A DNA stretch of 40,847 nt from Lysobacteraceae bacterium (lineage in GTDB: Bacteria; Pseudomonadota; Gammaproteobacteria; Xanthomonadales; Ahniellaceae). The first letter of the stretch is position 1. The number at the start of each line of letters is the position of its first letter. Location of the stretch: positions 1 through 40,847 of the forward strand of contig JAJTHZ010000089.1 of NCBI GenBank assembly GCA_021299185.1, read 5' to 3'. Both the position numbers and the translations under genes were made by a program. The notes below the pieces were generated by a model, which searched no databases, was not told the origin of the DNA, and saw only the letters and a list, made by a program, of their open reading frames with translations. This document shows positions 6,483 to 28,643 of this stretch, piece after piece.

Positions 6483-6492
6483 GGCGGGCGCC

Positions 6493-7278
6493 TCAGACGG
6501 TCTGGTTGAGGAACTGCAGCATGCCGTCGCTGGCGGCGATGGCCTTGGCGTTCATCTCGTAGGCGCGCTGGGTCTCGATCATGCTGACCAGTTCCTCGAC
6601 CACGTTGACGTTGCTGCTCTCCAGCGCGCCCTGCTGCACCAGGCCGAGTCCGTTGACGCCGGCGGTGCCGGTCTGCGCGGGGCCGCTGGCGCTGGTCTCG
6701 AGGAACAGGTTCTCGCCGCGCGCCTGCAGGCCGGCGGGATTGACGAAGTCGGTCAACTGCAGCGAACCGACCTGGGTCGAGGCCGCCTGCCCGGGCAACT
6801 GCACGCTCACCGTGCCGTCGCGGCCGATGGTCACGCTCTGCGCGCCCTGCGGCACCTGGATCGCCGGCTGCACCACGTAGCCGCTGTTGGTGACGATCTG
6901 CCCCTGCGCGTCGACCTGGAACGAACCGTCGCGCGTGTAGGCAGTGGTGCCGTCCGGCAGCAGCACCTGGAAGAAGCCGCGGCCGCTGATCGCGACGTCG
7001 AGCGCATTGCCGGTGTTGAGCATGTTGCCCTGGTCGAACGACTTGGCGGTGGCGACCACGCGCACGCCGGTGCCGGTGGACAGGCCGGTCGGCAACTGGG
7101 TTTGCTGCGACGACGCGCCGCCGGGCTGGCGCACCTGCTGGTAGAGCAGGTCCTCGAACGCCGCGCGCCCGCGCTTGAAGCCGGTGGTGTTGACGTTGGC
7201 GAGGTTGTTGGAAACCACTGACATGCGCGTCTGCTGCGCATCGAGTCCGGTCTTGGCGACCCACAGGGCCTGGTTCAT
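6493..7278 (-). CDS. flgG: FlgG, distal rod protein
   Basis: The 261-residue distal rod subunit has the canonical length. N-terminal signature is [20 protein letters not shown] (about residues 24-43). The internal [14 protein letters not shown] and C-terminal [28 protein letters not shown] are shared with other rod/hook proteins and are closest to FlgG. It is exported by the flagellar type III system and polymerises above the proximal rod (FlgB, FlgC, FlgF). ATG with GGAG seven bases upstream. Unlike the rest of the operon, the gap to flgF upstream is large (246 bases) and contains a possible small gene. Confidence 0.97.
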
Positions 7279-7317
7279 GGCGTGCTCCGGGCGCGCGCTG
7301 GGCGCGGCATGGTGGAT

Positions 7318-7503
7318 TCAGCGGGAATGCGGGATGCGGCGCGCGGTCCAGCCGTGTGCGGGCTGCGCCGCGGCGAGGGTGCGCACGACCACGCGCCAGC
7401 CGTCGAGGTCGACCACCAGCGGGCGCGCGGTGCACACCTGGACCGCGGCGCGCGGCGCGCGCGGCGTTGCGGGGGCGGGTGTCTGGCGTCTGGCACGGTC
7501 CAC
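7318..7503 (-). CDS. Possible 61-residue protein between flgF and flgG
   Basis: A small frame reads in the operon direction in the only long gap inside the flg operon. It starts at GTG (7501-7503) with GGAG eight bases upstream and uses the same G/C-rich third positions as its neighbours (for example the run GTG GTC GAC CTC GAC). The product is basic, with a central VVDLDGWRVVVRTLAA strand-like segment; no signal peptide, membrane helix or known motif is visible. I do not recognise it. It could be an unannotated flagellar accessory protein or non-coding spacer in which high GC keeps a frame open by chance. Confidence 0.4.
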   Translation of the reverse strand: MDRARRQTPAPATPRAPRAAVQVCTARPLVVDLDGWRVVVRTLAAAQPAHGWTARRIPHSR

Positions 7504-7523
7504 GTCGGTGCTCCGTCGTCTGC

Positions 7524-8267
7524 TCAGCCCATGCGTAGCAAGGACGATGCCGCGCGCGCGTTCTCGTCCGCGGTGCGCAGCACCTTGACCTGCATCTCGA
7601 ACTGGCGCGACAGCGAGATCATCTGCACCAGCGCCTCGGCGGCGTTGACGTTGCTGCCTTCCAGCGCGCCGGCGACCAGCACGCCGCCGGCGGCCGGCGC
7701 CGGCGGCGCCTGCGGATCCCTGGCGCGGAACAGGACGTCCGGTCCGCGCGCCAGTTCGTCGCCGGTGGCGGCGACGATCTTCAGGCGACCGACCTGGGCC
7801 AGCGTCTCGGGGCCCTGCCCCTGCGGCACGATCGACAGTGTGCCGTCGCCGCCGATGGTGAGCTTCTGGTGCGGCGGCACGGCGACCGGGCCGTTCTCGC
7901 CGAGCACCGGCAGGCCGGAGCGCGTCACCAATTGTCCGAGCGGCGTCAATTCGAGGTCGCCCGCGCGCGTGTACGCCTCGTTCCCCTGCGCGTCCTGCAC
8001 CGCCAGCCAGCGATCCTCCACCAGCGCGATGTCGAGGTCGTTGCCGGTGGTGCTGATCGGCCCGGCCGAGGCATCGAAGCCGCCGTCGGCGACCAGCGCG
8101 TTGAAGCGGGTCTCGAAGCCCGGCCCCTCGACCTTGCGCGCCTCCTGCTTGAGCAGCTCGGCCTTGAAGCCGACGGTGCCGACGTTGGCGATGTTGTGCG
8201 ACACGGCCTCCTGCGCCTTCATCGTGGCGCTGGCGCCGGTCATGGCGATGTAGAGGGCTCGGTCCAT
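7524..8267 (-). CDS. flgF: FlgF, proximal rod protein
   Basis: The 247-residue rod subunit opens MDRALYIAMTGASATMKAQ, typical of FlgF, followed by the rod signature SHNIANVGTVGFKAE. It then has DLDIALVEDRWLAVQDAQGNEAYTRAGDLELTPLGQLV and the C-terminal EGSNVNAAEALVQMISLSRQFEMQVKVL. It is exported through the flagellar type III apparatus and joins FlgB, FlgC and FlgG in the rod. The gene lies between flgE and flgG; the 134-base gap to flgE holds GGGCCC-type repeats. Confidence 0.96.
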   Translation of the reverse strand: MDRALYIAMTGASATMKAQEAVSHNIANVGTVGFKAELLKQEARKVEGPGFETRFNALVADGGFDASAGPISTTGNDLDIALVEDRWLAVQDAQGNEAYTRAGDLELTPLGQLVTRSGLPVLGENGPVAVPPHQKLTIGGDGTLSIVPQGQGPETLAQVGRLKIVAATGDELARGPDVLFRARDPQAPPAPAAGGVLVAGALEGSNVNAAEALVQMISLSRQFEMQVKVLRTADENARAASSLLRMG

Positions 8268-8305
8268 TCTTGCAGCTGCCTTGCGGGAGTCGAGGGTTCC
8301 GCTCG

Positions 8306-8396
8306 AGGGCCCAGGGCCCAGGGCTCAGGGCCCAGAACAGCCGCAGGCGTGGATGCCCGGCTCCTCTGGGCCCTGGGCCCTGTACCCTGGGCCCTG
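8306..8396. repeat. Inverted pair of GGGCCC-type heptamer repeats
   Basis: Two blocks, 8306-8335 and 8366-8396, are each built from imperfect seven-base units of the form AGGGCCC or CTGGGCC and are inverted relative to each other. Each block is itself nearly palindromic. Together they could form a long hairpin with a loop of about 30 bases in the mRNA between flgE and flgF, possibly adjusting expression of downstream genes or marking a processing site. The region has no coding signs. Degenerate heptamer runs of this style occur between genes in xanthomonads; I infer a similar origin here. Confidence 0.75.
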
Positions 8397-8401
8397 CTTC
8401 A

Positions 8402-9643
8402 TCAGCGGATGTTGATGATCGTCTGCTCGACCTGGTCCGCCGTCGAGATCATCTGCGCGTTGGCCTGGAAGTTGCGCTGCGCGGTGATCATGTTCACCAG
8501 TTCGGCGGTGAGGTCGACGTTGGAGGCTTCCAGCGCGCCGGACTGGATCACGCCGAACGACGAGGTGCCGGGCTCGCCGCGCACTGCCTCGCCCGACTCC
8601 GAGGTCTCCGCGAACGAGGTGTCGCCGAGCTGCTGCAGGGCCTGCGGGTTGGCGAAGCGCGTGAGCACGACCTGTCCGAGGGGCGCGCTCTGGCCGTTGG
8701 TGTAGCGCGCCGCCACCACGCCCTCGGGCGAGATCGCGACGCCCACCAGCCGGCCGGTGGCGAAGCCGTCCTGGGTGAGGCTGTTGACGCCGAAGCGCTC
8801 GCCACGCTGGGTGGTCGCCGAGACGTCGAGTTCGATCGTGATGTCCGCCGCACCGTTCGGCACCGGCGGCGTGCCGGTGGTCGGCGTGTGCGCGGGCAAG
8901 GTGATCAGGCCGTCGGCCGGCGTGGTCAGCACGCCCTGGCTGTCGAACTCGATGGCCTGCGCGCCGCCGACCGCCTGGCCGTCGATGTAGGTGTGCACGT
9001 CCCACTGGTTGGTGCCGGTCTTGACGAAGTACATCGTCTGCACGTGAGAGGTGCCGAGCGAGTCGTAGATCGTCACCGAGGTCGAGTGGTTGTAGGACCG
9101 CGACTCAGCCGGCGAGAACGGCGTGATCGTCGGGACGGTCGCGTTGGCGGGCAGCGTGAGCCCGACATCGACCGCGGACGTGGCGTTCGGCGCGGCATCG
9201 GTGGTAGTCAACTGGAGGTCGACGAGTCGCCCCCCGTCGAATCGGTCGGGCTGGCCGGCGACCGGCGGGAACACCTGCAAGCGCGCGCCACTGGCGTTGA
9301 CCACGAAGCCCTCGCGGTCGACGCCGAAAGCACCCGCGCGCGAGTAGACCGTCGAGCCGCGGTCGTTGAGGGTGAAGAAGCCTTCGCCCGAGATCGCCAT
9401 GTCGAGGCTGTTCTGGGTGAAGTCGATGTTGCCCTGGGTGAACTGCTGCGCCACCCGGTTGAGCGCCGCGCCGCTGCCGATCGCGTTGGTGCCGACGCCG
9501 AAGGCGGACACCGCGAACACGTCGCCGAACTCCGCGCGCGAGCGCTTGAAGCCGGTCGTGTTGACGTTGGCGATGTTGTTGGCCGTGATGCGCAGGTCCT
9601 GGCCGGCGGCGTTGATGCCGCTGAGCGCGATGCGGAAGGTCAT
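8402..9643 (-). CDS. flgE: FlgE, flagellar hook protein
   Basis: The 413-residue subunit of the hook has N-terminal MTFRIALSGINAAGQDLRI and the signature [26 protein letters not shown]. It continues with NSLDMAISGEGFF and the hook core, and ends LTAELVNMITAQRNFQANAQMISTADQVEQTIINIR. Length matches typical FlgE (about 400). The frame continues upstream to 9889, but that part is flgD in another frame; ATG at 9641-9643 is preceded by GAGGA about seven bases away. It assembles under the FlgD cap, whose gene is just upstream. Confidence 0.97.
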   Translation of the reverse strand: MTFRIALSGINAAGQDLRITANNIANVNTTGFKRSRAEFGDVFAVSAFGVGTNAIGSGAALNRVAQQFTQGNIDFTQNSLDMAISGEGFFTLNDRGSTVYSRAGAFGVDREGFVVNASGARLQVFPPVAGQPDRFDGGRLVDLQLTTTDAAPNATSAVDVGLTLPANATVPTITPFSPAESRSYNHSTSVTIYDSLGTSHVQTMYFVKTGTNQWDVHTYIDGQAVGGAQAIEFDSQGVLTTPADGLITLPAHTPTTGTPPVPNGAADITIELDVSATTQRGERFGVNSLTQDGFATGRLVGVAISPEGVVAARYTNGQSAPLGQVVLTRFANPQALQQLGDTSFAETSESGEAVRGEPGTSSFGVIQSGALEASNVDLTAELVNMITAQRNFQANAQMISTADQVEQTIINIR

Positions 9644-9693
9644 GCTGGGATCCTCGTGCTGTCGTTCGTGTCGCTGGGATGGGTGGCGCGCGC

Positions 9694-10401
9694 TCAGCCG
9701 AAGCGGCGCACGCCGTTGACCGGGAAGTTGCCGATGCCTTCGAGCGCCAGGATCGCGCCCTGGGCGCCGACGCTGACGCTGCGCACGTGCCCCTCGAGCA
9801 GCACCGGCGCCTCCTGGCCGTTGACGCGGGCGCGCACCGTGTACTCGCCGCCGGGCGCCGGACGGCCGTTGGTGAGCGTGCCGTTCCACTTGAAGTCGGC
9901 GAGCCCGGCCTCGCGGGTTCCGAGGTTGACCGTGTGCACGACCGCGCCGGTCGAATCCAGCACCTCGACGGTGGCCGCGCCACGCGCGGGCACGTCGATC
10001 GCGCCGGCGATGCCGCGCATCGCGGCCGCGGTGGCCGTCACCGGTGTGGCGCCGGCGGTCTCGTCGACCGGCGGCAGCGTGAAGGCGTCCGCCTCCACCA
10101 GCGCCGTTCCACCGACCAGCGCCGCGGCCGACAGCGCCTGCGAACCGCGCAGCGAGTCGACCAACTCGCCGAAGCCGGCGCTGAGCTTCTCGATGCCGGA
10201 CACGGTGGAGAACTGCGCGAGCTGGGCGACGAACTCGGCGCCCTTCTGCGGATCGAGCGGGTCCTGGTTGCGCAACTGTTCCAGCATCAGGCGCAGGAAG
10301 TCGTTCTGCCCGACCTCGGCGCCGCCGCGGCGCGCGGGCGCCGGGTTGGTGATGCCGATGGAGGCGTAGTACTCGGGGCTGCCGACGGCGGGCGTGGTCA
10401 T
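9694..10401 (-). CDS. flgD: FlgD, hook-capping scaffold protein
   Basis: The 235-residue protein is needed for hook assembly; it caps the growing hook and is later displaced. The N-terminal hallmark QNDFLRLMLEQLRNQDPLDP (about 32-51) and the following AEFVAQLAQFSTVSGIEKL are clear. The C-terminal half contains the FlgD Ig-like/tudor region (for example GLADFKWNGTLTNGRPAPGGEYTVRA). GAGGACCTC lies just before the ATG at 10399-10401. Third gene of the operon, between flgC and flgE. Confidence 0.96.
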   Translation of the reverse strand: MTTPAVGSPEYYASIGITNPAPARRGGAEVGQNDFLRLMLEQLRNQDPLDPQKGAEFVAQLAQFSTVSGIEKLSAGFGELVDSLRGSQALSAAALVGGTALVEADAFTLPPVDETAGATPVTATAAAMRGIAGAIDVPARGAATVEVLDSTGAVVHTVNLGTREAGLADFKWNGTLTNGRPAPGGEYTVRARVNGQEAPVLLEGHVRSVSVGAQGAILALEGIGNFPVNGVRRFG

Positions 10402-10424
10402 TCGGAGGTCCTCGGATCGATCGC

Positions 10425-10838
10425 TCAGCGGCCCATCGCGCCGATCGTGCGCAGGGTCAGGTCGCGCGCGGTGGTCATCACCTCGACGTTGGCCTGGTAG
10501 CTGCGTGCGGCGGAAATCATGTTGACCATCTGCTCCACGGCATCGACCGGGGGCGCATAGACGTAGCCCTCGCCGTCGGCCAGCGGGTGGCCCGGCTCGT
10601 AGCGCTTGAGCGGGGCGGCGGTGTTCTCCGCCACCTCCTTCACGCGCACGCCGGGCAGGGTCGCGCCCTCGCCCACCGGCACCGCCTCGAACACCGGCTC
10701 GCGCGGACGGAACACCTGCTCCGGGTCGCCGCTGACCGACTCCGCGTTGGCGAGGTTGCTCGCCACCGTGTTCAAGCGCACCGACTGCGCGGCGAGCGCG
10801 GAGCCGGCGATGTCGAAGATCCCGAACCCGCTCATCAT
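10425..10838 (-). CDS. flgC: FlgC, proximal rod protein
   Basis: The 137-residue proximal rod subunit has N-terminal FGIFDIAGSALAAQSVRLNTVASNLANAES and C-terminal VEQMVNMISAARSYQANVEVMTTARDL, both diagnostic of FlgC. The start overlaps the flgB stop by four bases (ATGA), indicating translational coupling. A second ATG follows immediately, so the first residue is uncertain by one. It is exported by the flagellar type III system. Confidence 0.97.
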   Translation of the reverse strand: MMSGFGIFDIAGSALAAQSVRLNTVASNLANAESVSGDPEQVFRPREPVFEAVPVGEGATLPGVRVKEVAENTAAPLKRYEPGHPLADGEGYVYAPPVDAVEQMVNMISAARSYQANVEVMTTARDLTLRTIGAMGR

Positions 10839-11239
10839 TCGCCTCCGGTGATCGCGGTGTTGAGCGTGCGCATGCGCCGCTCGATGAAGGTGAGGGTCGC
10901 CTGGTACTTCATCGCCGCCTCGGCGAACTTGGCGTTCTCGGTCGCCAGTTCGACCGTGTTGCCGTCCTGTGCCGGCTGCAGCGGGATGCGGTAGACGGTG
11001 GCGGGCTCGCCGCCGGTGCCGGGTGCGGCCAGATGGCCGGGCGCGGTGCGCGCCATCGCCACCGGCGCGCCCGCCGCGCCGGACTGCGCGCGCAGCACGC
11101 CCGTGAAGTCGAGGTCGCGCGCGAGGTAGCCGGGGGTGTCGGCATTAGCGATGTTCGACGCGATGCGGTCGATCCGCGCACGGTGCAGCGACAGCGCCGT
11201 GCCGTGGATGCCGAGCAGGTTGTCGAAGGGTCCAGCCAC
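10835..11239 (-). CDS. flgB: FlgB, proximal rod protein; first gene of the flg operon
   Basis: The 134-residue proximal rod subunit carries the signature IASNIANADTPGYLARDLDF (about 27-46). The C-terminal helix is FAEAAMKYQATLTFIERRM. The start is GTG at 11237-11239 with GGAG about eight bases upstream. It is the first gene of the eleven-gene flgBCDEFGHIJKL operon. The probable sigma-54 promoter (11287-11302) gives a leader of about 37 bases, which contains a seven-base-pair hairpin (arms 11254-11260 and 11266-11272) immediately before the ribosome binding site. Confidence 0.97.
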   Translation of the reverse strand: MAGPFDNLLGIHGTALSLHRARIDRIASNIANADTPGYLARDLDFTGVLRAQSGAAGAPVAMARTAPGHLAAPGTGGEPATVYRIPLQPAQDGNTVELATENAKFAEAAMKYQATLTFIERRMRTLNTAITGGE

Positions 11240-11286
11240 CGCCGGTGCTCCGTCGGCGCGTGACGCGCGCCGTCGGAAACGGTCGA

Positions 11287-11302
11287 GGCAAAGGGCGTGC
11301 CA
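11287..11302 (-). promoter_or_regulatory. Sigma-54 promoter of the flgB operon
   Basis: On the minus strand the sequence reads TGGCACGCCCTTTGCC, an essentially perfect -24/-12 element (GG and GC separated by ten bases). Transcription would start near 11277, about 37 bases before flgB. In Pseudomonas and Xanthomonas the flgB operon is under RpoN with the FleQ activator; the regulator itself is not in this window. The same core recurs in front of flgA. Confidence 0.88.
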
Positions 11303-11349
11303 GCGCCGACGGGCCCGAGGCCTGTTCGGCGTCGGACCTCGGTGGGCAA

Positions 11350-11369
11350 GCCGCGCGCCAGCGCGCGGC
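11350..11369 (-). terminator. Possible cheV terminator hairpin
   Basis: A perfect nine-base-pair GC stem (GCCGCGCGC/GCGCGCGGC) with a two-base loop lies just after the cheV stop codon and before the flgB promoter. There is no T-tract, so intrinsic termination is uncertain; it may be a 3' stabilising structure. Confidence 0.35.
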
Positions 11370-11391
11370 GCGTCGGGTCAGTGGCGCGGCG

Positions 11392-12330
11392 TCAGGCGGC
11401 CATCCCCAGCGCGTGGACGCGCTCCAGCACGGTCGCCGCAAGTTCGTCCGGCGTGTACTTGGGCACGAAGCGGTCGGCGCCGACGCGCGCCACCATCGCG
11501 TTGTTGAAGATCCCCGACAGCGAAGTGTGCAGGATCACGAACAGATCGCTCAGGCGCGGATCCCGGCGGATTTCCGTCGTCAGCGTGTAGCCGTCCATGT
11601 CCGGCATCTCGATGTCGCTGATCACTACCTGGTAGCGGTCGGAGGGCTTCTCGCCGCGGTCGGCGAGGTCCTTGAGGTGGCGCAGGGCCTGGCGGCCGTC
11701 CGGCATCAGGGTGCACTCGAGGCCGAGTTGCGACAGCACGCCCTGGATCTGGTTGCGCGCCACCCGCGAGTCGTCGACCACCAGCACGTGCGCGCCGCCG
11801 GAACCGCGCTTCGTCGCGCTGGCGACCAGGTCGGCCGACACGGTGATCGTGGCGCCGTTCACGTCCGCCAGCACCTTCTCGACGTCGATGATCTGGATCA
11901 GTTCGTTCTGGTGGCGGGTCACCGCGGTGAGTTGCGTGGAGCCGAGGCCGACATCGGGCGGCGGCAGCACGTCCTCGACCGCGATGTTCACGATCCGGTC
12001 CACCGCGGCGACCAGGAAGCCCTGCACCGTGCGGTTGAACTCGGTGACCACCAGGTAGCCGGCGTTCTCGGTCTGCGCCTCGGGATGCCCGATCGCGCGG
12101 CCGAGGTCCAGCACCGGCAGCGTGCGGCCACGCACGTCGGCCACGCCGACCAACTGCGGGTGGCGGCTCGGCAGCGGCCAGATGCGGGGGCGCTTGATCA
12201 CCTCCTGCACCTTGAACACGTTCACCCCGAAGCGCTGCCGGCCGCCGAGGCGGAACAGCAGCAGGGCAAGCCGGTTGTGGCCGGCGAGCCGGGTGCGCTG
12301 GTCGATCGTGGAAAGGAGGCGTCCGCTCAT
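11392..12330 (-). CDS. cheV: CheV, chemotaxis coupling protein (CheW-receiver fusion)
   Basis: The 312-residue cytoplasmic adaptor links chemoreceptors to CheA and can be phosphorylated. Residues 1 to about 165 form the CheW-like domain (LLFRLGGRQRFGVNVFKVQEVI, then LVGVADVRGRTLPVLDLGRAIG). From about 180 a receiver domain follows, with LVVDDSRVARNQI, the phospho-acceptor in VISDIEMPDMDG and the switch lysine in VPKYTP. ATG at 12328-12330 with GGAGG three bases upstream. A FliA-type promoter overlaps the upstream region (12340-12366), placing cheV in the late flagellar class. It is divergent from flgA. Confidence 0.95.
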   Translation of the reverse strand: MSGRLLSTIDQRTRLAGHNRLALLLFRLGGRQRFGVNVFKVQEVIKRPRIWPLPSRHPQLVGVADVRGRTLPVLDLGRAIGHPEAQTENAGYLVVTEFNRTVQGFLVAAVDRIVNIAVEDVLPPPDVGLGSTQLTAVTRHQNELIQIIDVEKVLADVNGATITVSADLVASATKRGSGGAHVLVVDDSRVARNQIQGVLSQLGLECTLMPDGRQALRHLKDLADRGEKPSDRYQVVISDIEMPDMDGYTLTTEIRRDPRLSDLFVILHTSLSGIFNNAMVARVGADRFVPKYTPDELAATVLERVHALGMAA

Positions 12331-12339
12331 ACGCCTCCG

Positions 12340-12366
12340 TCATCGGCCCCGCTGGCGGGAACTTGA
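12340..12366 (-). promoter_or_regulatory. FliA (sigma-28) promoter of cheV
   Basis: On the minus strand TCAAGTTC, eleven bases, then GCCGATGA. This matches the FliA consensus TAAAGTTT-N11-GCCGATAA in both boxes with exact spacing. The predicted start (about 6-7 bases after the -10 box) falls near 12333, only a few bases before the cheV ATG, so the mRNA would have almost no leader. Confidence 0.75.
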
Positions 12367-12376
12367 GGCCCCGCCG

Positions 12377-12392
12377 CGGCACGCACCTTGCC
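12377..12392 (+). promoter_or_regulatory. Sigma-54 promoter of flgA
   Basis: The sequence CGGCACGCACCTTGCC has GG and GC ten bases apart and shares GGCACGC-C-TTGCCTCGA with the flgB promoter. The predicted start lies near 12403, about three bases before the flgA ATG at 12406, which would give a nearly leaderless message. Confidence 0.72.
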
Positions 12393-12405
12393 TCGAAGCC
12401 GCGCC

Positions 12406-13068
12406 ATGTGGAGAACCCCTGCCCTCGCCGTCTTCGTCGCCTTGATCGCGTCGGTGCCCCTGCGCGCCGACGACGGCGCGCAGCCGGTGGCCGCGATCCG
12501 CGCTGCCGCCGAATCGGCGGTCGCCGCCGGACCCGGCGCCACGGTGAGCGCCAGCGTCGACGAGCGCCTGCGCCTGCCGCGCTGCAGCGAGCCCCTGGTC
12601 GCGCTGCCGCAATCGGCCGGCACGGTCGAGGTCGCCTGCCCGGCCGCGGCCGGCTGGAAACTGTACGTACCGGTGCGGATCAGCCGCAGCGGCGCCGTGC
12701 TGGTGCTGACCCGCCCGGTCGGCGCCGGCATGCCGATCCCGACCGACGCGCTGGCGCTGGAAACGCGCGACCTGGCGCGGCTGGCTGGTGGCGCGCTGGC
12801 CGATCCCTCGCTGGCGGCCGGGCGCCTCGCGCGCCGCGCGCTGCCGGCCGGACATGCCCTGTCGGCCGCCGACATCGCGCTGCCGCCGGTCGTGCGGCGC
12901 GGCCAGTCGGTGACCCTGGTCGCGCGCGCCGGCGGGCTGGAGGTGCGCAGCAGCGGCCGCGCGCTGGCCGATGCCGCGCCGGGCGATCCGGTGTCGGTGG
13001 AGAACCCGTCGTCGCGCCGCGTGGTCACCGGCATCGCCCAGGCCGGCGGCGAGGTCTGGGTCCGGTGA
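12406..13068 (+). CDS. flgA: FlgA, P-ring assembly chaperone
   Basis: The 220-residue periplasmic chaperone is required for FlgI to form the P-ring. It has an N-terminal signal peptide (MWRTPALAVFVALIASVPLRA), a globular domain with a cysteine pair (LPRCSEPLVALP and VEVACPA) and the C-terminal SAF/FlgA region (LPAGHALSAADIALPPVVRRGQSVTLVARAGGLEVRSSGRALADAAPGDPVSVEN). An in-frame TTG at 12388 would add six residues, but it lies inside the -12 box, so the ATG at 12406 is preferred. No good Shine-Dalgarno is present, consistent with a very short leader. Followed by flgM and flgN. Confidence 0.95.
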   Translation: MWRTPALAVFVALIASVPLRADDGAQPVAAIRAAAESAVAAGPGATVSASVDERLRLPRCSEPLVALPQSAGTVEVACPAAAGWKLYVPVRISRSGAVLVLTRPVGAGMPIPTDALALETRDLARLAGGALADPSLAAGRLARRALPAGHALSAADIALPPVVRRGQSVTLVARAGGLEVRSSGRALADAAPGDPVSVENPSSRRVVTGIAQAGGEVWVR

Positions 13069-13141
13069 ACAAGACCGCCCCACCCTGCCCCCGGAGCCGC
13101 TCCGCGGCCGGACCGCCCGTGCGCCCCGTGCGCGGGGGGGC

Positions 13142-13168
13142 TACAGTTCCGCCGGCGACCGCCGATAC
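13142..13168 (+). promoter_or_regulatory. FliA (sigma-28) promoter of flgM
   Basis: TACAGTTC, eleven bases, then GCCGATAC: a close match to the FliA consensus with exact spacing. The start would be near 13175, about 25 bases before the flgM ATG. FliA-driven flgM expression is the classic feedback that restores anti-sigma levels late in flagellar assembly. Confidence 0.82.
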
Positions 13169-13198
13169 CGGGGTCGTACGGCACCCGTGGAGCCCGCC

Positions 13199-13507
13199 AT
13201 GACCACCAAGATCGAAGGTCCCCGACTCGCCCCCCTGCCGCCGACTTCGGCGGCGGAGTCGGCCGACCGCAAGGCCCGCGCCAGCGCGGACGAGAAGATC
13301 GGCGCCACCGCGGCCAGCGACAGCGTGCGCCTGACCGGCGCCGGCAGCGAGATCGCCGCCGTGGCGCGCAGCGCCGGCGAACCAGCGCCGTTCGACGCGG
13401 CGAAGGTCGAACGCGTGCGTGCGGCGCTGGCCGACGGCTCGTTCAAGGTCGATTCGCGCCTGATCGCCGACCGCCTACTCGCGGCCGAGAAGGACCTGCC
13501 GCGGTGA
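13199..13507 (+). CDS. flgM: FlgM, anti-sigma-28 factor
   Basis: The 102-residue protein binds FliA until the hook is complete and is then exported through the hook. The start MTTKIEGPRLAPLPP is followed by a disordered, Ala/Ser-rich N-terminal half. The C-terminal FliA-binding helices (FDAAKVERVRAALADGSFKVDSRLIADRLLAAEKDL, about 66-100) are typical of FlgM. The frame is open upstream into flgA sequence; the ATG at 13199 is chosen for the GGAG seven bases before it and the FliA promoter upstream. It overlaps flgN by four bases (GTGA). Confidence 0.93.
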   Translation: MTTKIEGPRLAPLPPTSAAESADRKARASADEKIGATAASDSVRLTGAGSEIAAVARSAGEPAPFDAAKVERVRAALADGSFKVDSRLIADRLLAAEKDLPR

Positions 13508-13913: not shown

Positions 13914-15533
13914 ATGCTTGTCCTCGCCATGGACCAGGAACCGGCCAACGCCGCGATCGACACCGACGTCCTGCTCGACGCGCTCTCGCAGCACGTCCTG
14001 CTGCTGGATGCCGACGGCCGGATCCTGCGCGCCAACGACGCCTGGTCGCGCTTCGCGCGCCTGCGCGGCATCGCCCCCGAAGCGTGGCGCGGCGCCGGCT
14101 TCATCGACTTGGTCGCGCGCATGGCCGCGCTCGGCGATTCGCAGGTCGCCGCGCTGCGCGACGGGCTGGCCGCGCTGCGCGCCGGCCGCGGCGGCTTCAG
14201 CACCGACGTCTGCTACGCGGGGCCCAGCCTGACCCAGTGGTTCAGCGTGGATGCGCACGCGCTCGAGGACGGCCGCCGGATCGTGGTCCAGCACGACGTG
14301 ACCGAACTGCGGATCTTCGACCACGCGCGGATCCGCTTCGAACAGATGGTCGACGCGTCCACCGACGCGATCCTGGTGGTCGACGGCGACGGCAACGTGG
14401 GCTATGCCAACGACGCCGCCTGCCGGCTGGCCGGCGCGCTGCCGCGCGAGGGCACCAGCGCGGTCGCGAGCGTGGTCGACCGCACCGCGATCGCGATCGC
14501 CGCGGCGAGCGGCGCCTGGCGCTCCGAGGTCACCATCCGCACCCTCGACGGTGCCGAGATCCCGGTGGTGCAGGACGTGCGCAAGCACGACTCGCCGGAC
14601 GACGGCGGCGCCTACTTCACGGTGATGCTGCACGACATCTCGGCCGAGAAGTCGCGCGAGGAAGAGCTGCAGAAGCGCAACGTCGAGCTGCAGCTGGCCT
14701 ACTCGCAGCTGCGCGGCGCGCAGGACCAGCTGCTGCAGTCGGAGAAGATGGCCTCGATCGGCCAGCTGGCCGCCGGCGTCGCGCACGAGATCAACAATCC
14801 GATCGGCTACGTGCACTCCAACATCGGCACCCTGAAGGACTACACGCGCAACCTGTTCGGCATGCTGGCCGCCTACGAGAACGCGCTGGCCGGGGTGCCG
14901 ATGGCGCCCGAGCAGCGCGGCGCGCTGGAGGAACAGCGCGAGCGCTTCGAGATCGACTACCTCACCCAGGACCTGCCCAGCCTGCTCGACGAGTCCGCCG
15001 AGGGCATCGAGCGGGTGCGCAAGATCGTGCAGGACCTGAAGGACTTCTCGCACGCAGGCCAGGGCGAGGAATGGCAGGTCGCCGACCTGCACCGCGGGCT
15101 CGACTCCACCCTCAACATCGTGTGGAACGAGATCAAGTACAAGGCCGAGGTGGTCAAGGACTACGGGCCGCTGCCGCCGGTCGAGTGCATCCCCTCGCAG
15201 TTGAACCAGGTGTTCCTGAACATCCTGGTCAACGCCGGGCATGCGATCAAGGAGCGCGGCACGATCCGCATCTCCACCGGCGCCGGCACCGACAGCGGCT
15301 GGATCGAGATCGCCGACACCGGCGAGGGGATCGCCGAGGAGAACCTGCAGCGGATCTTCGACCCGTTCTTCACCACCAAGCAGGTCGGCCAGGGCACGGG
15401 GCTGGGGCTTTCGCTGTCCTACAGCATCGTCAAGAAGCACGGCGGGCGGATCGAGGTCAGCAGCAAGCTCGGCCAGGGCACCGCCTTCCGCATCCTGCTG
15501 CCGCTGCGCCAGTCGGAGCAGCGCGCGGCCTGA
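13914..15533 (+). CDS. Soluble PAS-PAS sensor histidine kinase
   Basis: The 539-residue kinase lacks membrane segments. It has two PAS-like domains (about 16-132 and 140-245), a coiled-coil linker (246-280, [21 protein letters not shown]), a dimerisation/phospho-acceptor domain with H291 in [18 protein letters not shown], and an ATPase domain with N-box [28 protein letters not shown] and [13 protein letters not shown]. All catalytic boxes are intact. It converges with the LOV-GGDEF-EAL-REC gene, the stops being nine bases apart. The C-terminal receiver of that protein is a plausible partner, an arrangement reminiscent of the RavS/RavR pair of Xanthomonas, though identity is not shown. Start may instead be the ATG at 13929; neither has a clear Shine-Dalgarno. 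Confidence 0.9.
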
Positions 15534-15542: not shown

Positions 15543-18500
15543 TCAGGCGGTCGCCGGCCGGCGCTCGGACTGGGTGCGGAACGCCTCGCGGATCTCGCGC
15601 CGCAGTTCCTCGTCGTCCCACGGCTTGGTCAGGAACTTGTAGATCGCGCCGCGGTTGATCGCCTCGGTCACCGTGCGCAGGTCGGTGTAGCCGGACAGCA
15701 CCAGGCGCACCGTGTCCGGGTACAGGGCGCGCACCTGGCTGAGGAACTCCGTGCCGCTGATGTCGGGCATGCGCTGGTCGCTGATCACCACGTGCACCTC
15801 GTGGCGGCCGAGCAGCTCGAAGGCTTCGCGCGCATTGGTGGCGGTGAGGATCTTGTAGCCGTCGCGGCGCAACAAACGGGTCAGCGCGCGGAGGATGTTC
15901 TCCTCGTCGTCGAGCAGCAGCAGGGTGCGCTCGTCGAGGTTGCCGGAGAACGATTCCTTGGCCAGGAAGCGCCGGCCGAGCAGTTCGCCGGCGAGGTCGG
16001 CGCGCACCGGCCCGGAGAAGAACAGGCCCTGGAACTGGTCGCAGTGGTTGCGCCGCAGGTAGCCCATCTGCGCGGCCGTCTCCACGCCCTCGGCCATCAC
16101 CGTCATGCCCAACTGGTGGCCCATCGCGATGATCGCGCGTGCGATGCCGGCATCGCCGGAGTCGCGGGTGATGTCGCGCACGAAGCTCTGGTCGATCTTC
16201 AGCTTCTCGATCGGGAAGCGCTTGAGATGGTTCAGCGACGAGAAGCCGATCCCGAAATCGTCGAGGGCGAGCCGGACCCCGAGCTCGCGCAGCGCGTTCA
16301 TGGTCTCGATCATGCGCTCGACGTTGTCCATGATGCTGGACTCGGTGAGTTCCAGTTCGAGGTGGCGCGGCGGCAGGCCGGCGGACTGCAGCGCGGCGCG
16401 CACTTCGGCGACGAAGGTCGGCCGCTGCAGTTGCAGCGCGGACACGTTGACCGCCACCGCGAACTCATGGTGGCCCATATCCAGCCACTGGCGGGCCTGC
16501 TGCGAGGCGTGCTCGAGCACCCAGCGACCGACGTCGGCGATCAGGCCGAGTTCCTCCGCCACGCGGATGAACCGGCCCGGCGGCAGGAAGCCCAGTTCCG
16601 GGCTCTGCCAGCGCACCAGCGCCTCCAGGCCGACGACCTGGCCGTTCTGCGCGCTGACCTGCGGCTGGTAGTGCAGCAGCAGTTCGCCCTTGCGCGCCGC
16701 ATCGCGCAGGTGGCCGCCCAGCGACAGGCGGTCGGCCAGTTCCTGCACCTGCTCGTTGGAGAACCGCGCCACCGCGTTGCGGCCGTTGCGCTTGGCGCGG
16801 CCCATCGCCGCCTCGGACTGGTTGAGCAGTTCCGCCGCGCTGGACGCGCTGTCGGGGAAGGCGCTGATGCCGACGCTGGCGGTCAGGTAGACCGAATACG
16901 GCGGCACCGACAGCGGCTGCTCGATCGCATCGCGGATGCGGTCGGCGAGCAGCGCACCGTCGCGGTCCTCGGCGCCGGGGATGTAGACCACCACGAACTC
17001 GTCGCCGGCGATGCGCGACACCCGGCCATCCTCGCCGACCACCGCACGCAGGCGTTGCGCCACCACGTGCAGCGCCTCGTCGCCGACCGCATGGCCCATG
17101 GATTCGTTGACGCTGTGGAAGCGGTCGACGTCGACGTAGAGCATCAGCACCCGACCGCCGCTGCGACCCGCGTCGGCGACCGCGCCGCGGGTGAACTCCT
17201 CGACCGCGATGTAGCGCGGCAGCCCGGTCACGTTGTCGTGGGTCGCCATGTAGGCCATCTCGGCCTCGTGGCGGCGGCGTTCGGTGACGTCGACCTGGAT
17301 GCCGACGTAGTGCGTGATCTCGCCGCGCTCGTTGCGCACCGGCGCGATGTTCAGGTGGTTCCAGAACAGCGTGCCGTCCTTGCGGTAGTTGCGCAGCACC
17401 ACGTCGCAGCCGCGCCCCTCGCGGACCGCCTCGCGCAACTGGCGCACCTCCGGCTGGTCGCGGTCGTTGCCCTGCAGGATGCGGCAGTTGCGGCCGACGA
17501 TGTCGTCGAAGCCATAGCCGGTCATGCGCTCGAACGCGGCGTTGATGTAGATCGTCGGCTGGTCGGGCCGGCGTGCGTCGGCGATCAGCACGCCGTTGGT
17601 GGTGGATTCGATGGCGCGCTCCAGCACCCGCAGTCGTTCCTCGCTGCGATGACGCTCGGTGACGTCGCGCAGCGCCACCAGTTTGGCGAGCTGGTCGTCC
17701 CACACGGTTTCGCTGACCCGCGATTCGATCGCATGCGCCTGGCCGCGCATGGTGGTGACCTCGGCCTCGGAGAATTCCGAATCGAGCACCTCGGGCAGCG
17801 CGAAATCGCGCCCGATGAGGGCTTCCGGCGCGGCGTCGAACAGCAGGCCGGCGGCGGGATTGGCGAACACCACGCTGCCGTCGCCGGCGACCACCAGCAG
17901 CGCGTCGATGGCGTCGGTCAGCACGTTGCGCAGGCGCTGCTCGCGCTCGCGCACCGCGTTCTCGACCCGCAGCCGCTCGGTGACGTCGAGCGCCAGCACC
18001 AGGCGCGCGTCGTGGCCCTCGAAGTTGAGGCTGTGCGAGGTGACCTCGACGTCGATGATGCTGCCGTCGCGCTTGCGATGCCGCCACAGCCCCGCCTTCA
18101 CGAGGCCGCGCGGCCGCTGCCGGCGATAGGCCTCGAAGGTCTCGCGCTCGTCGTCCGGCCGAATGTCGAGCACGGACAGGTGCGTGAGATCCTCGCGCGA
18201 GTAGCCGTAGTGGTCGATCATCGCCTCGTTGACGGCGAGGAAGCGCAGGGTGTCGATGTCGTACACCCACAGCGGCATCGGGTTGCGCTCGAACAGCAGG
18301 CGGTAGCGCGCCTCGCCCTCCTCCACCGCCTGGTAGGCGCGCGCGCGGTCCACCGCGTAGCGCAGGGCGCGCGACAGGCGCTCCGGGTCGAGGTCGCGCT
18401 TGACCAGGTAGTCGGCCGCTCCGGCCGCCAGCGCGGCGGCGTCGACCTCGGGGTTGCCCTGGCCGGTGAGCAGGATCATCGGCGCCCGGTTGCCCATCGC

Positions 18501-18725
18501 GGCCGCCTGCCGCATCAGGTCGATGCCGCTGTACGCGCCGAGCAGGTAATCCACCAGGTAGACGTCGCCGGAGCCGTCGCGCACCCGCGCCAGCCCGTCG
18601 TCCCAGGTAGCCGCCCACGACAGTTCGAAGCGCGCGCCGGCGATGCGGTCGACGACGTCGGCGACGAGGATGTAGTCGTCTTCGTCGTCGTCGATCACCA
18701 CCACCCGGACCGGCGCTTCGCTCAT
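15543..18725 (-). CDS. REC-PAS-PAS-LOV-GGDEF-EAL-REC protein (c-di-GMP turnover, blue-light sensor)
   Basis: The 1060-residue cytoplasmic protein has, in order: a receiver (5-120, D59 in VDYLLG), PAS (140-250), PAS (262-355), a LOV-type PAS (about 365-482), GGDEF (about 490-655), EAL (about 670-920) and a second receiver (935-1050, D983 in SDQRMPD, K1034). The LOV part has the photo-active motif GRNCRILQG (C414) and the flavin contacts in NYRKDG, FWN and GIQ. The GGDEF motif is AGDEF (573-577) and ND is replaced by NE, so cyclase activity is doubtful and a GTP-sensing role is possible. The EAL domain looks active: EAL 701-703, ELTES, DDFGIGFSS, KIDQSFV, AEGVET. ATG overlaps the stop of the upstream receiver gene (ATGA), so the extended frame to 18761 is rejected. 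Likely a c-di-GMP phosphodiesterase integrating light and two phosphorelays. Confidence 0.93.
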   Translation of the reverse strand: MSEAPVRVVVIDDDEDDYILVADVVDRIAGARFELSWAATWDDGLARVRDGSGDVYLVDYLLGAYSGIDLMRQAAAMGNRAPMILLTGQGNPEVDAAALAAGAADYLVKRDLDPERLSRALRYAVDRARAYQAVEEGEARYRLLFERNPMPLWVYDIDTLRFLAVNEAMIDHYGYSREDLTHLSVLDIRPDDERETFEAYRRQRPRGLVKAGLWRHRKRDGSIIDVEVTSHSLNFEGHDARLVLALDVTERLRVENAVREREQRLRNVLTDAIDALLVVAGDGSVVFANPAAGLLFDAAPEALIGRDFALPEVLDSEFSEAEVTTMRGQAHAIESRVSETVWDDQLAKLVALRDVTERHRSEERLRVLERAIESTTNGVLIADARRPDQPTIYINAAFERMTGYGFDDIVGRNCRILQGNDRDQPEVRQLREAVREGRGCDVVLRNYRKDGTLFWNHLNIAPVRNERGEITHYVGIQVDVTERRRHEAEMAYMATHDNVTGLPRYIAVEEFTRGAVADAGRSGGRVLMLYVDVDRFHSVNESMGHAVGDEALHVVAQRLRAVVGEDGRVSRIAGDEFVVVYIPGAEDRDGALLADRIRDAIEQPLSVPPYSVYLTASVGISAFPDSASSAAELLNQSEAAMGRAKRNGRNAVARFSNEQVQELADRLSLGGHLRDAARKGELLLHYQPQVSAQNGQVVGLEALVRWQSPELGFLPPGRFIRVAEELGLIADVGRWVLEHASQQARQWLDMGHHEFAVAVNVSALQLQRPTFVAEVRAALQSAGLPPRHLELELTESSIMDNVERMIETMNALRELGVRLALDDFGIGFSSLNHLKRFPIEKLKIDQSFVRDITRDSGDAGIARAIIAMGHQLGMTVMAEGVETAAQMGYLRRNHCDQFQGLFFSGPVRADLAGELLGRRFLAKESFSGNLDERTLLLLDDEENILRALTRLLRRDGYKILTATNAREAFELLGRHEVHVVISDQRMPDISGTEFLSQVRALYPDTVRLVLSGYTDLRTVTEAINRGAIYKFLTKPWDDEELRREIREAFRTQSERRPATA

Positions 18726-19197
18726 CGCTCGCCCCCGCCGCGGTCCACGCTGTCGCCGCACCAGTGCGCCAGCCGGCGCACGATGCCCACCAGTTCGTCA
18801 AAGCGCGTCGGCTTGGTCGCGAAGTCGCAGGCGCCGAGCTGCACCACACGCGAGCGGTCCTCGTGCGCGCGCGAGGTGGTGAGCACCAGCACCGGCAAGG
18901 CGCGCAGGCGCTCGTCCTCGCGCATCTCGGCCAGCGCCTCGCGACCGTCCTTGCGCGGCATGTTCAGGTCGAGCAGCACCACGCTCGGGAACGGATGGCG
19001 CACGCGGTCGGCGTACTCCCCCTCGCCGCGCAGGTAGGCCAGGAGCTGCTCGCCGTCGCCGACGAAGCGCAGGTCGCAATAGATCTGCGACACGCGGAAC
19101 GCCTCCTCGGCGAGCAGGCGGTCGTCGGCGTCGTCCTCGGCGACCAGCACGGTCGCCCTCGCAGGGGTTGGGTGGATGCGCACTGCGTGCCTCGTCG

Positions 19198-19201
<4 letters not shown>
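18722..19201 (-). CDS. Single-domain response regulator (Rcp1-like receiver)
   Basis: The 159-residue protein is just a receiver domain with no output domain. It has AEDDADDRLLAEEAF at the acidic pocket, phospho-acceptor D78 in LLDLNMPRKDG and K130 in FATKPTRFDEL. The DD...DLNMPRKDG style is typical of Rcp1-like regulators that pair with phytochrome-type kinases whose H-box reads SHDLQEPLR; the gene upstream encodes exactly such a kinase. ATG at 19199-19201 overlaps the kinase stop (ATGA), and its own stop overlaps the start of the LOV-GGDEF-EAL gene, so the three are one operon. It may shuttle phosphate or control another target by contact. Confidence 0.93.
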
Positions 19202-24972
<5,771 letters not shown>

Positions 24973-25888: not shown

Positions 25889-25999
25889 CCGGACGGTGGT
25901 CCATTCCGCGCGCGGCGCTGGGAGCCGCAGGTGGTTGGCCACAGCATTCAGCACGGTGCCGCCAGCGGGCGCACCGAGACGCCAGGGGTCGGCGATCCG

Positions 26000-27652
26000 A
26001 TGAGCGCGGGAGAGGACGTCTTGAACGCAGCCAGCACGAGCGGCTTGTCGATGGCCCCGGCGCCGCAGGCGGCGCCGCGGCCGGCCGACGCGGCGGTCTC
26101 GCGCAGCATCCGCCGCCACTTCGTCGCCAGCCTCGCAGAGCGACGCCGCCTGCTGCTGTCGATGTGGCAGGGCGTGCGCGCGAATCCGGACGACCGCGCG
26201 GCGCGGGCGCGCCTGTCGCGCCATCTGCGCGTGCTCGGCGAAGCGGCCGCACGGGCCGGCGCGACCTCGATCGAGAGCGCGGCGCGCGCCACCGACCGCA
26301 ACCTGCCGCACGCCGTGGACGCCGGCGGCGCGGTGCTCGACCCGCTGGTCGACGCCACCCTCGACGCGATGGCCGCGGTGTCGCAGCAGGACGCCCCGGT
26401 GGTCGCGGCGCGCCTGCCAATGGCGGTGTTCGACCTGCCCGACCCCGCGCAACTCGCGTGGCTGGAAGAAATCCTGCTCGCCGCCGGCTGCCAGGTCCAG
26501 GCGGCCGAAGCCGACCCGGTGCTGCCGAGGGATGCCGCCGGCCACGTCGTGCTGGTCGCCGCCGCATGCGCGAACGCGGCACGGCTCGCCGCGTGGCGCG
26601 AGGCCGCCGCGCGCAGCGGTCGCCCACTGCGGCTGGCGGTGCTCGGCGAATCGCCGGACGCCGACGTCCGGCGCGGCTGGCTCGCCGCCGACGGCGTGCT
26701 GCCCGAGCCGGGCGAGCGCCAGGCGCTGCTGGCGGCGGTCGAGGGCGAAATCGCGGCGCTGTCGGACCCGGTGCGCTGCGTGGCGCTGCTCGGCCTCGAT
26801 GCGGCGCACGCCGACTGGGCCGTCGCCTTGTCCGCGGCCGGGTTCGTGGTCGCATCGATCGCCAGCGACGCCGATGTCTGGGAACTCTCGCGCGCGCACG
26901 GCGTCGACGCGGTGCTGGTCGCACCCTCCGCCGGCGAGGTGCGCGCGGTCGAACTGGCCGCCCTGCTCGCGCAGCGACCCCACGCCAGCGCCATCGAAGT
27001 CATCCGCATCGGCGCCGACGGCGACGACGCGGGCCGGCTGTTCGCCTGCGGCGTCGCCCGCCTGCCCGCGGACCTGCCCCCGTCCGCGGCGGCGGGCGCG
27101 CTGCGCGAACGCCTGCAGCGCGGCCGACGGGCCGCGCCGTCCGACATCGATCCGGTGAGCGGCGCCTTGCGTCGCGCGCCGTTCCTGCTGCTGATGCAGG
27201 CCATGCTCGACGGCCCGGCGCCGTTCGTCGGCATCGGCTCGATCGACCTCGACGGGCTGCGCCGGATCAACGAGGAGTTCGGGCGCCGCGCCGGCGACGA
27301 GGCGCTGCGCGCAGTCGCACGTCGCCTGCGCGCCGCGCTGCCGGCGACCGCGGTGCTGGGGCGCGCCGGCGGCGACGAGTTCCTGTTCGGCTTCACCGCG
27401 CGCAACGAAGCGGAGTCGCGGCGCCTGATGGCGCAGGCGGCGAGCCCGCCGGCGGACGGCGAAGCCGCGATGCGATTGACCAACTGCATCGGCGGCGTGC
27501 TGCTCGACCGCGACGATCGCGCGCAACGCCTGCCGATGGCGGAACTGATCGCGCGTGCCGGCGAACTGATGCTCGACGGCAAGAGCGGGCACGGCAGCCG
27601 CATCGCGCTGGCCCGCTACGGCGAGCGGCCGATCGGCGAACGCTGGTTCTGA
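26000..27652 (+). CDS. Diguanylate cyclase with degenerate phosphorelay domains
   Basis: The 550-residue cytoplasmic protein has a C-terminal GGDEF domain (about 383-540) with DPVSGALRRAPF, IDLDGLRRINEEFGRRAGDEAL and an intact GGDEF motif (457-461), so it probably makes c-di-GMP. No RxxD inhibitory site is visible at the usual place. The N-terminal 40-130 resembles a histidine phosphotransfer bundle with H75 in SRHLRVLGEAAARAG. Residues 140-250 and 255-375 look like two receiver folds that lack the acidic pocket and the phospho-acceptor (for example DAVLVAPSAG). ATG at 26000 has only a weak Shine-Dalgarno; TTG at 26021 has GAGAGG five bases upstream and may be the true start. Probably co-transcribed with the sigma gene. 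Confidence 0.85.
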   Translation: MSAGEDVLNAASTSGLSMAPAPQAAPRPADAAVSRSIRRHFVASLAERRRLLLSMWQGVRANPDDRAARARLSRHLRVLGEAAARAGATSIESAARATDRNLPHAVDAGGAVLDPLVDATLDAMAAVSQQDAPVVAARLPMAVFDLPDPAQLAWLEEILLAAGCQVQAAEADPVLPRDAAGHVVLVAAACANAARLAAWREAAARSGRPLRLAVLGESPDADVRRGWLAADGVLPEPGERQALLAAVEGEIAALSDPVRCVALLGLDAAHADWAVALSAAGFVVASIASDADVWELSRAHGVDAVLVAPSAGEVRAVELAALLAQRPHASAIEVIRIGADGDDAGRLFACGVARLPADLPPSAAAGALRERLQRGRRAAPSDIDPVSGALRRAPFLLLMQAMLDGPAPFVGIGSIDLDGLRRINEEFGRRAGDEALRAVARRLRAALPATAVLGRAGGDEFLFGFTARNEAESRRLMAQAASPPADGEAAMRLTNCIGGVLLDRDDRAQRLPMAELIARAGELMLDGKSGHGSRIALARYGERPIGERWF

Positions 27653-27671: not shown

Positions 27672-28643
27672 TCAGCGCGTCGCGCGCCCGGCGAGCAGGG
27701 CGTCGAAATAGGCGATCGTCCGCTCCAGGCCCTGCGCGAGCGCCACCTTCGGCTGCCAGCCGAGTCGCTCGCGGGCCAGCGCGATGTCGGGCTGGCGCTG
27801 GGTCGGGTCGTCGGACGGCAGGGGACGGAATTCGATGCGCGAGCGCGAGCCGGTGAGCGCGATCACCTGGTCGGCCAGTTCGCGGATGGTGAACTCGCCG
27901 GGGTTGCCGAGATTCACCGGTCCGGTGAAATCGGCCGGCGAGGCCATCAGGGCGAGGAAACCGTCGATCAGGTCGTCGACGTAGCAGAACGAGCGCGTCT
28001 GCCGCCCTTCGCCGTAGATCGTGATCGGATCGCCGCGCAGGGCCTGCACGATGAAGTTCGACACCACGCGGCCGTCGTTGGGGTGCATGCGCGGCCCATA
28101 GGTGTTGAAGATGCGCGCGACCTTGATCTCCACCCGGTGCTGCCGGTGGTAGTCGAAGAACAGGGTCTCCGCGCAGCGCTTGCCCTCGTCGTAGCAGGAG
28201 CGCAGTCCGATCGGATTGACGTGGCCCCAGTAGTCCTCGCGCTGCGGATGCACCTGCGGATCGCCGTAGACCTCGCTGGTGGACGCCTGGAAGATGCGCG
28301 CGCCGACCCGCTTGGCCAGCCCCAGCATGTTGATCGCGCCGTGCACGCTGGTCTTGGTGGTGGCCACCGGGTCGTGCTGGTAGTGCACCGGCGAGGCCGG
28401 GCAGGCCAGGTTCCAGATCTCGTCGACCTCGACGAACAGCGGCAGGGTCACGTCGTGGCGCAGGAACTCGAAGTTCGGGTGCGCCAGCAGGTGCGCGACG
28501 TTGCGCTTGTCGCCGGTGAACAGGTTGTCGGCGCAGATCACGTCGTGGCCCTGCGCGATCAGGCGGTCGCACAGGTGCGAACCGAGGAAGCCGGCGCCGC
28601 CGGTGACCAGCACGCGCTTCGATTCGTTGGGGCCGCGGCGCAT
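27672..28643 (-). CDS. uxs: UDP-glucuronate decarboxylase (UDP-xylose synthase), SDR family
   Basis: The 323-residue extended short-chain dehydrogenase converts UDP-glucuronate to UDP-xylose and carbon dioxide with bound NAD. NAD-binding GGAGFLGSH (15-23), the serine of STSEVYGDP (121-129) and the YxxxK pair Y151/K155 are present. The strings [24 protein letters not shown] and [19 protein letters not shown] are typical of UXS/ArnA-type decarboxylases. The ATG at 28641-28643 has GAGGGA about seven bases upstream; the longer frame to 28871 is ugd in another frame. It lies ten bases after ugd, which makes its substrate, so the two work in sequence for surface polysaccharide. Confidence 0.94.

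Follow-up and report, generated by a model that had tools for sequence, protein, structure and literature searches.

In the window, the whole 40,847-nucleotide stretch analysed here (Lysobacteraceae bacterium, assembly GCA_021299185.1, contig JAJTHZ010000089.1), we identified a reverse-strand open reading frame (ORF) at 15543–18725, with an ATG at 18725, that encodes a 1060-residue REC-PAS-PAS-LOV-GGDEF-EAL-REC protein. We consider it rather likely that this protein is a RavR/PdeR-like phosphodiesterase for cyclic di-GMP (c-di-GMP) that integrates several signals and retains a light-sensing N-terminal part, through which blue light, together with two kinases, would set swimming. A light- and phosphorylation-gated phosphodiesterase, as already proposed from the sequence-only reading, appears to be the best reading, because the LOV identity, the intact EAL domain and the two intact receivers are well supported; what that reading had missed is the likeness to RavR, the operon in which the gene lies and the recurrence of the architecture. 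The domains, residues, synteny, co-occurrence and tree described below were computed directly.

Pfam searches bore out the proposed domain order with receivers (REC) at both ends, detecting two receivers, GGDEF, EAL and PAS stretches (three at a looser threshold, two at a stricter one). The N-terminal receiver (residues 5–124; 18354–18713) and the first PAS domain (approximately residues 139–250; 17976–18311), both with boundaries set by hand, are followed by a second PAS domain (approximately residues 262–356; 17658–17942), the weakest of the set, which was delimited by hand from a loose Pfam stretch and model strands and had no NCBIfam match at 1e-10. The LOV (residues 366–484; 17274–17630), GGDEF (494–650; 16776–17246) and EAL (673–906; 16008–16709) domains and the C-terminal receiver (936–1045; 15591–15920) complete the protein, all on the reverse strand. 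Relatives align along its full length, with 48–50% identity across residues 3–1058 in three other genomes and 47–48% (best segment) across residues 2–1056 in two Pseudomonas relatives, and full-length matches at 47–50% identity rule out a chance ORF or misread frame. One scan of viral contigs, addressing a viral origin, found no relative. A full-length AlphaFold model had a mean predicted local distance difference test score (pLDDT) of 85.8 and a predicted template-modelling score (pTM) of 0.49; the list from its structural search was filled by EAL and GGDEF-EAL entries and was uninformative for LOV or receivers, and therefore the LOV domain was modelled alone.

Several lines of evidence make the LOV identity of the third PAS domain well supported. 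The segment carries GRNCRILQ, in agreement with GxNCRxLQ, which we take to be the LOV motif, and Cys414 (codon 17484–17486, reverse strand) is the predicted flavin-adduct cysteine; the residues that presumably contact the flavin through Asn, Gln and Arg side chains are all present (N413, R415, Q418, N446, N456 and Q477). The signature had been described as GRNCRILQG with C414, NYRKDG (446–451), FWN (454–456) and GIQ (475–477), and we found each element as described. Against the PDB, the best matches of the segment were LOV proteins (best E 6.5e-41, among the 60 listed of 163 matches), the listed entries including bacterial short LOVs, chimeras, a Meiothermus LOV kinase, phototropins and 8c05, a LOV-activated cyclase; NCBIfam YtvA-type and LOV-kinase models also matched, at scores under their whole-protein cut-offs. 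The AlphaFold model of residues 355–505, built without flavin ligand, had a mean pLDDT of 92.8, and its structural search listed 50 PDB entries (of 1000 aligned), every one of them a LOV domain or LOV-derived fluorescent protein, with Z scores of 21.1–19.3. Sequence, profile and fold comparisons thus all point to LOV, and the fold together with the conserved contacts suggests an open flavin pocket.

Variants of this domain were seen among the relatives. LOV-like domains with most flavin contacts have the adduct cysteine replaced by Val in L020/L111 (genome G323), Ser in L029 (Modicisalibacter luteus) and Pro in L037, and the Cys-LOV relatives L013, L045, L052, L084 and L021 carry Leu, Ile or Ser at the position of the active-site glutamine Q477. 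In Paraburkholderia and allies (L059–L062, L068, L071–L083, L085, L088, L090, L091, L094 and L095), which encode PAS-PAS-GGDEF-EAL proteins, the PAS domain preceding GGDEF in most cases shows a LOV-like GDCRxLQ, where Asp takes the place of Asn, along with Ile at the glutamine position; these may possibly be unrecognised photoreceptors.

The output domains argue for hydrolysis. All ten EAL catalytic residues, a list we assume from RocR, are intact (Q687, E701, N760, E792, D822, D823, K843, E879, E882 and Q899), and the decad, QENEDDKEEQ, is likewise complete in each of the 13 further loci that share this N-terminal receiver. The GGDEF motif reads AGDEF, departing from the GG[DE]EF of an active diguanylate cyclase, and residues 564–567, which we take to be the RxxD inhibitory site (I-site), read GEDG and lack it. 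Residue columns confirmed the earlier statement of intact EAL motifs, AGDEF and a change of ND to NE (N540-E541). Because the metal, guanine and phosphate or catalytic positions, with roles that we presume from PleD, remain (D532, N540, D549, D575, E576, K645 and R649), AGDEF alone is no proof of a dead cyclase. Among the front-receiver relatives the motif varies (AGDEF; AGDKF in L013, where E576 is Lys; TSDEF in L021; GGDEF or SGDEF in Pseudomonas, Stutzerimonas, Modicisalibacter and Marinobacter, with intact GGDEF in Pseudomonas), and in L010 the metal Asp 532 is Asn. Since GGDEF drifts in relatives while the EAL decad stays, the comparison points to c-di-GMP hydrolysis as the predicted conserved output of the family. 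Both receivers have complete pockets, with D12–D14, phospho-acceptor D59, T87 and K109 in front (DDD-D59-T87-K109) and DD-D983-S1011-K1034, with phospho-acceptor D983, at the rear.

The neighbourhood of the gene ties it to RavR/PdeR. A RavA/PdeK-like PAS histidine kinase of 534 residues (13929–15533, forward strand) is transcribed towards the LOV gene, their stop codons 9 bases apart, and beyond it, as the sequence-only reading had noted, lies a flagellar and chemotaxis locus (324–13507) encoding FlgL, K, J, I, H, G, F, E, D, C and B, CheV (ORF at 11392–12330), FlgA and FlgM, in which flgL to flgB and cheV are on the reverse and flgA and flgM on the forward strand; some rod gene names were given by gene order. 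In two genomes of family f2 of the window's taxonomic order (G021 and G010), a short GGDEF-EAL-REC gene stands beside a RavA/PdeK-like kinase and FlgM, FlgA, CheV and FlgB, an arrangement, flgM-flgA-cheV-flgB, that the window shares. When f2 was searched with the short protein, 59 of 119 genomes matched at E<=1e-150, and 30 loci were taken from these 59. Ten of the 30 (L128–L137) carry GSDEM, the motif printed for RavR of Xanthomonas campestris pv. campestris (Xcc) (PMC6707612), and in 14, numbering from an in-frame Met puts the C-terminal phospho-Asp at 496, as given for RavR (PMC6707612, PMC9600515). These rows are equated with RavR on the grounds of motif, length, phospho-Asp position and the neighbouring kinase. 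The C-terminal receiver of the window protein shares 71–75% identity with those of L128, L129 and L141, as against 33–35% for GGDEF and 53–54% for EAL. Of the RavR-type EAL domains (L120–L146), 24 have two of the ten catalytic residues as Asn and 3 have a single one as His; RavR has been reported as active (PMC6707612). The window protein thus has the RavR/PdeR core, namely GGDEF-EAL-REC, an adjoining RavA/PdeK-like kinase and the flgM-flgA-cheV-flgB neighbourhood seen around the RavR-type genes of G021 and G010, and departs from the short, sensor-less, GSDEM-type form in its 1060 residues with REC-PAS-PAS-LOV and its AGDEF. Because of this long front end and AGDEF it is a relative of RavR rather than RavR, and it looks like a long version of RavR/PdeR, with a predicted light sensor, set in the same flagellar surroundings.

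Phylogenetic trees are consistent with this relation. In a 66-row GGDEF-EAL-REC tree the 18 rows from the window's taxonomic order group together (100/100), and every main branch of this group contains LOV-bearing proteins. A 36-row tree, midpoint-rooted and weak at its base, nests the RavR type stepwise: L021 (REC-PAS-LOV) with the Cys-less L020, then L147 (LOV-GGDEF-EAL-REC without front receiver), then L148 and L149 (both without LOV), then the RavR type, with nesting supports of 100/98, 99/97, 100/99, 99/97 and 100/99. Tree row P0001 grouped with LOV-less Rhodanobacteraceae-type proteins at 97/85 in the 66-row and 64/11 in the 36-row tree. In a tree of the front half (receiver and LOV, 14 rows) the order splits from Pseudomonas and allies at 100/98, and because the rear half gives the same split, the long protein was probably inherited whole. 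Since RavR-type proteins nest stepwise among LOV-bearing ones, RavR probably lost its light-sensing front end, loss in the RavR line being the simplest reading as against repeated gain of the front end. We give slightly better than even chances to the wider view that RavR/PdeR, which regulates swimming and virulence in Xanthomonas, is what erosion has left of a blue-light receptor. On this view the ancestor was a phosphodiesterase of the order REC-PAS-PAS-LOV-GGDEF-EAL-REC that answered to two kinases and light; its front end would have disappeared stepwise along with the kinase operon upstream, so that the C-terminal receiver and the RavA/PdeK kinase paired with it would be left, and the window protein would keep the full three-input form.

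The two-receiver architecture had been called unusual; this does not hold, as it is a recurrent gammaproteobacterial family. Among the relatives compared, which came from the window's taxonomic order and from a scan of named genomes (best 80 of 588 relatives), we found 14 non-duplicate loci with this front receiver and with LOV in the same place, from the window's taxonomic order, Pseudomonas, Stutzerimonas, Marinobacter and Modicisalibacter. Seven of these, including the window and with two Pseudomonas loci and one Stutzerimonas locus among them, have the exact domain order REC-PAS-PAS-LOV(Cys)-GGDEF-EAL-REC, six (four from Marinobacter) have one PAS fewer, and in one Modicisalibacter locus Ser replaces the LOV Cys. 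Within the window's taxonomic order, 11 of 398 genomes had a match at E<=1e-200, six of them with a Cys-LOV (G000, G001, G005, G006, G036 and G236), and a further Cys-LOV member, L147 in G411, surfaced only with a short RavR-type query.

Upstream of the LOV gene lie a single-receiver protein of 159 residues (18722–19201) and a large histidine kinase with GAF, several PAS, HisKA and HATPase domains (19198–24972; 1924 residues from the Met at 24972, open to 25101), all on the reverse strand. The kinase stop overlaps the ATG of the single-receiver gene, and the stop of the latter overlaps the ATG of the LOV gene (ATGA in both cases), an apparent operon with the LOV gene third. Counting blastp segments at 93 loci, with flanks mostly of 5 kb and some shorter, we found the large multi-PAS kinase in 11 of 14 loci with an N-terminal receiver versus 0 of 79 without, and the single receiver in 12 of 14 versus 0 of 79. 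The RavA-like kinase occurred in 42 of 67 loci with a C-terminal receiver (in one, L055, the matching receiver sits at the N-terminus) versus 0 of 26 without, 24 of which are from Paraburkholderia, Caballeronia, Trinickia and Burkholderia. On account of these counts, we propose that the large kinase pairs with the front receiver and the RavA-like kinase with the rear one. In 8 of the 79 loci without N-terminal receiver, the protein itself carries a fused GAF domain akin to the one in the large kinase. Fused forms in open frames of 1124–2024 residues, with a GAF-bearing sensory part in place of the front receiver ahead of a LOV (with or without Cys) and GGDEF-EAL-REC, are those of L030, L031, L032, L036 and L038 (Pseudomonas), L035 and L100 (Alkalimonas) and L111.

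Flavin photochemistry, kinase–receiver phosphotransfer, the sign of the light effect and an effect on swimming are what we infer beyond these data, in a mechanism in which blue light would form a Cys414–flavin adduct in LOV, and the resulting change would pass through the 21-residue LOV–GGDEF stretch into GGDEF-EAL and alter c-di-GMP hydrolysis by EAL. If so, light would on balance be expected to raise hydrolysis and favour swimming, because SL2 hydrolyses c-di-GMP under blue light (PMC8846402). The large upstream kinase would phosphorylate the N-terminal receiver at D59, the separate single receiver, or both, and the convergent RavA/PdeK-like kinase the C-terminal receiver at D983, as reported for PdeK on PdeR: in Xanthomonas oryzae pv. 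oryzae, PdeK, the cognate kinase, triggers PdeR phosphodiesterase activity (PMC6637768), at odds with the report that RavA phosphorylation left RavR activity unaltered in Xcc (PMC6707612). GGDEF would be a regulatory or weak domain, and the output would be local c-di-GMP tuning the flagella encoded next door. RavR and RavS control swimming (PMC6707612), with differing reports as to direction, ravR deletion having raised swimming in Xcc and disruption having abolished it in Stenotrophomonas maltophilia (PMC9600515).

Several observations weigh against this mechanism. The bit-score thresholds for co-occurrence were picked after looking at earlier locus data, and the large kinase was not found within the flanks of three of the 14 front-receiver loci (L106, L108 and L109), although in L106 an ORF with a GAF resembling that of the large kinase reaches the end of the available flank. 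After tree correction, 4–5 of 5 independent pairs agree and none disagrees (p 0.0625–0.125, not significant), making the association of front receiver and large kinase suggestive only, and the count for the C-terminal receiver and RavA-like kinase is of related loci without such correction. All 27 Cys-LOV rows (two of them duplicate records) have 21 residues from Q477 to D497, but so do 73 of all 74 aligned rows, LOV-less ones included, which makes this a common PAS–GGDEF spacing and not a LOV-specific feature. Domain packing in the full-length model has no reliable prediction, given its pTM of 0.49, and the loss of Cys in relatives (Val in L020, Ser in L029) makes a non-photochemical flavin role possible.

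Such a role would make the LOV domain a flavin-binding redox or oxygen sensor, with redox state as its physiological input, as proposed for the PASd domain of RmcA (PMC8846402); the relatives with LOV contacts and no Cys (L020 Val, L029 Ser, L037 Pro) and the putative stimulation of RavR activity by low oxygen (PMC9600515) speak for it. We regard it as unlikely, in view of the Cys being kept in 25 of 28 LOV-like tree rows and, with all flavin contacts, in the window protein, and of the four BLUF domains of the host genome, by which blue-light sensing is probably part of its biology. Somewhat less likely still is a main job as phosphate sink or scaffold, in which the receivers compete between two kinases and the enzyme is secondary. 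RavR is reported to act in this way in Xcc (PMC6707612), and the C-terminal receiver is the part best conserved against RavR-type rows, but all ten EAL residues are kept in the window protein and 13 front-receiver loci, the substitutions at one or two positions being found in the RavR-type rows. An enzyme that is bifunctional or mainly a cyclase, its AGDEF still making c-di-GMP under light, seems quite improbable: the metal, guanine and catalytic positions (D532, N540, D549, D575, E576, K645 and R649) are present and LOV-activated cyclases exist (PMC10396304), but the first Gly of GGDEF is lost, the I-site is absent, and in relatives GGDEF drifts, with E576 replaced by Lys in L013 and D532 by Asn in L010, whereas EAL stays unchanged.

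Among known systems, RavR/PdeR of Xanthomonas and Stenotrophomonas share with the window protein the GGDEF-EAL-REC core and the RavA/PdeK-like kinase neighbour, and RavR-type proteins fall with it in one clade of the order in the 66-row tree; unlike it, they have approximately 575 residues without REC-PAS-PAS-LOV, read GSDEM, GSDEF or GSDEL, and have one or two EAL positions substituted. The LOV-GGDEF-EAL core is of a known kind, because approximately 18% of a set of 1390 bacterial LOV proteins carry GGDEF or GGDEF-EAL (PMC4844311). SL2 of Synechococcus elongatus likewise has LOV before GGDEF-EAL and a phosphodiesterase output, but is described with LOV, GGDEF and EAL only, receivers or kinase partners going unmentioned in the available text (PMC8846402). 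The LOV-GGDEF cyclase LadC (8c05) shares the fold of the window LOV model (Z 19.9, rmsd (root-mean-square deviation) 3.9 over 136) and a helical linker to GGDEF, and its short-linker class is 21 residues by the paper's own definition, as is Q477–D497 here; in contrast, it has no EAL and no receivers, and its output is synthesis (PMC10396304). RmcA of Pseudomonas aeruginosa, a phosphodiesterase tied to the effect of light on c-di-GMP and biofilm, also has several PAS domains, the fourth LOV-like, but this one lacks the cysteine, and receivers are unmentioned in the part available (PMC8846402). A glutamine-less Mesorhizobium loti protein has the same LOV-GGDEF-EAL order, with Met where the window protein has Q477, and again receivers are unmentioned there (PMC9098866).

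Elsewhere in the window, a divergent gene next to the large kinase (25931–27652, forward strand) matched GGDEF in its later part only (profile positions 37–153 of 161), and genes of the sugar-nucleotide epimerase/dehydratase and UDP-glucose/GDP-mannose dehydrogenase families (27672–30159, reverse strand) perhaps serve exopolysaccharide synthesis near c-di-GMP genes. In G236 (L110, 6999–17001), the LOV gene and kinase operon lie directly against the opposite end of the flagellar genes, next to those for FlgL, FlgK and FlgJ. The 4.84 Mb host genome has the window protein as its one LOV at E<=1e-12, which rules out other LOV copies at that threshold, four BLUF domains and seven PilZ domains, so that light input and c-di-GMP effectors are both present. 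No phytochrome PHY domain exceeded the cut-off (best E 0.35), which speaks against the idea that the large kinase takes in light as a phytochrome does. A tandem pair of short BLUF proteins (G000:C226:11229–12059; L117 and L118) directly follows a CheB-like ORF, with CheZ- and CheY-like ORFs on the opposite strand (chemotaxis names assigned by eye); blue light may also feed chemotaxis in this organism.

A literature search, with subscription journals mostly outside its reach, returned no title or abstract start linking RavR or PdeR with light or LOV. Papers that cover both RavR and light mention the two separately in their available parts, and PMC6707612 names light only as a possible cue for PAS domains such as those of RavS. 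The two-receiver, two-kinase wiring and the RavR link appear to be new. Through synteny, the partner kinase and the trees, a LOV-GGDEF-EAL protein is connected here to a regulator that has been studied in depth and has low oxygen as its reported input; this connection predicts that light was an original input of the RavR node. With each receiver provisionally assigned to one kinase, the pairing is directly open to phosphotransfer assay, and the window protein would offer a natural three-input phosphodiesterase, answering to light and two phosphorylations, to dissect.

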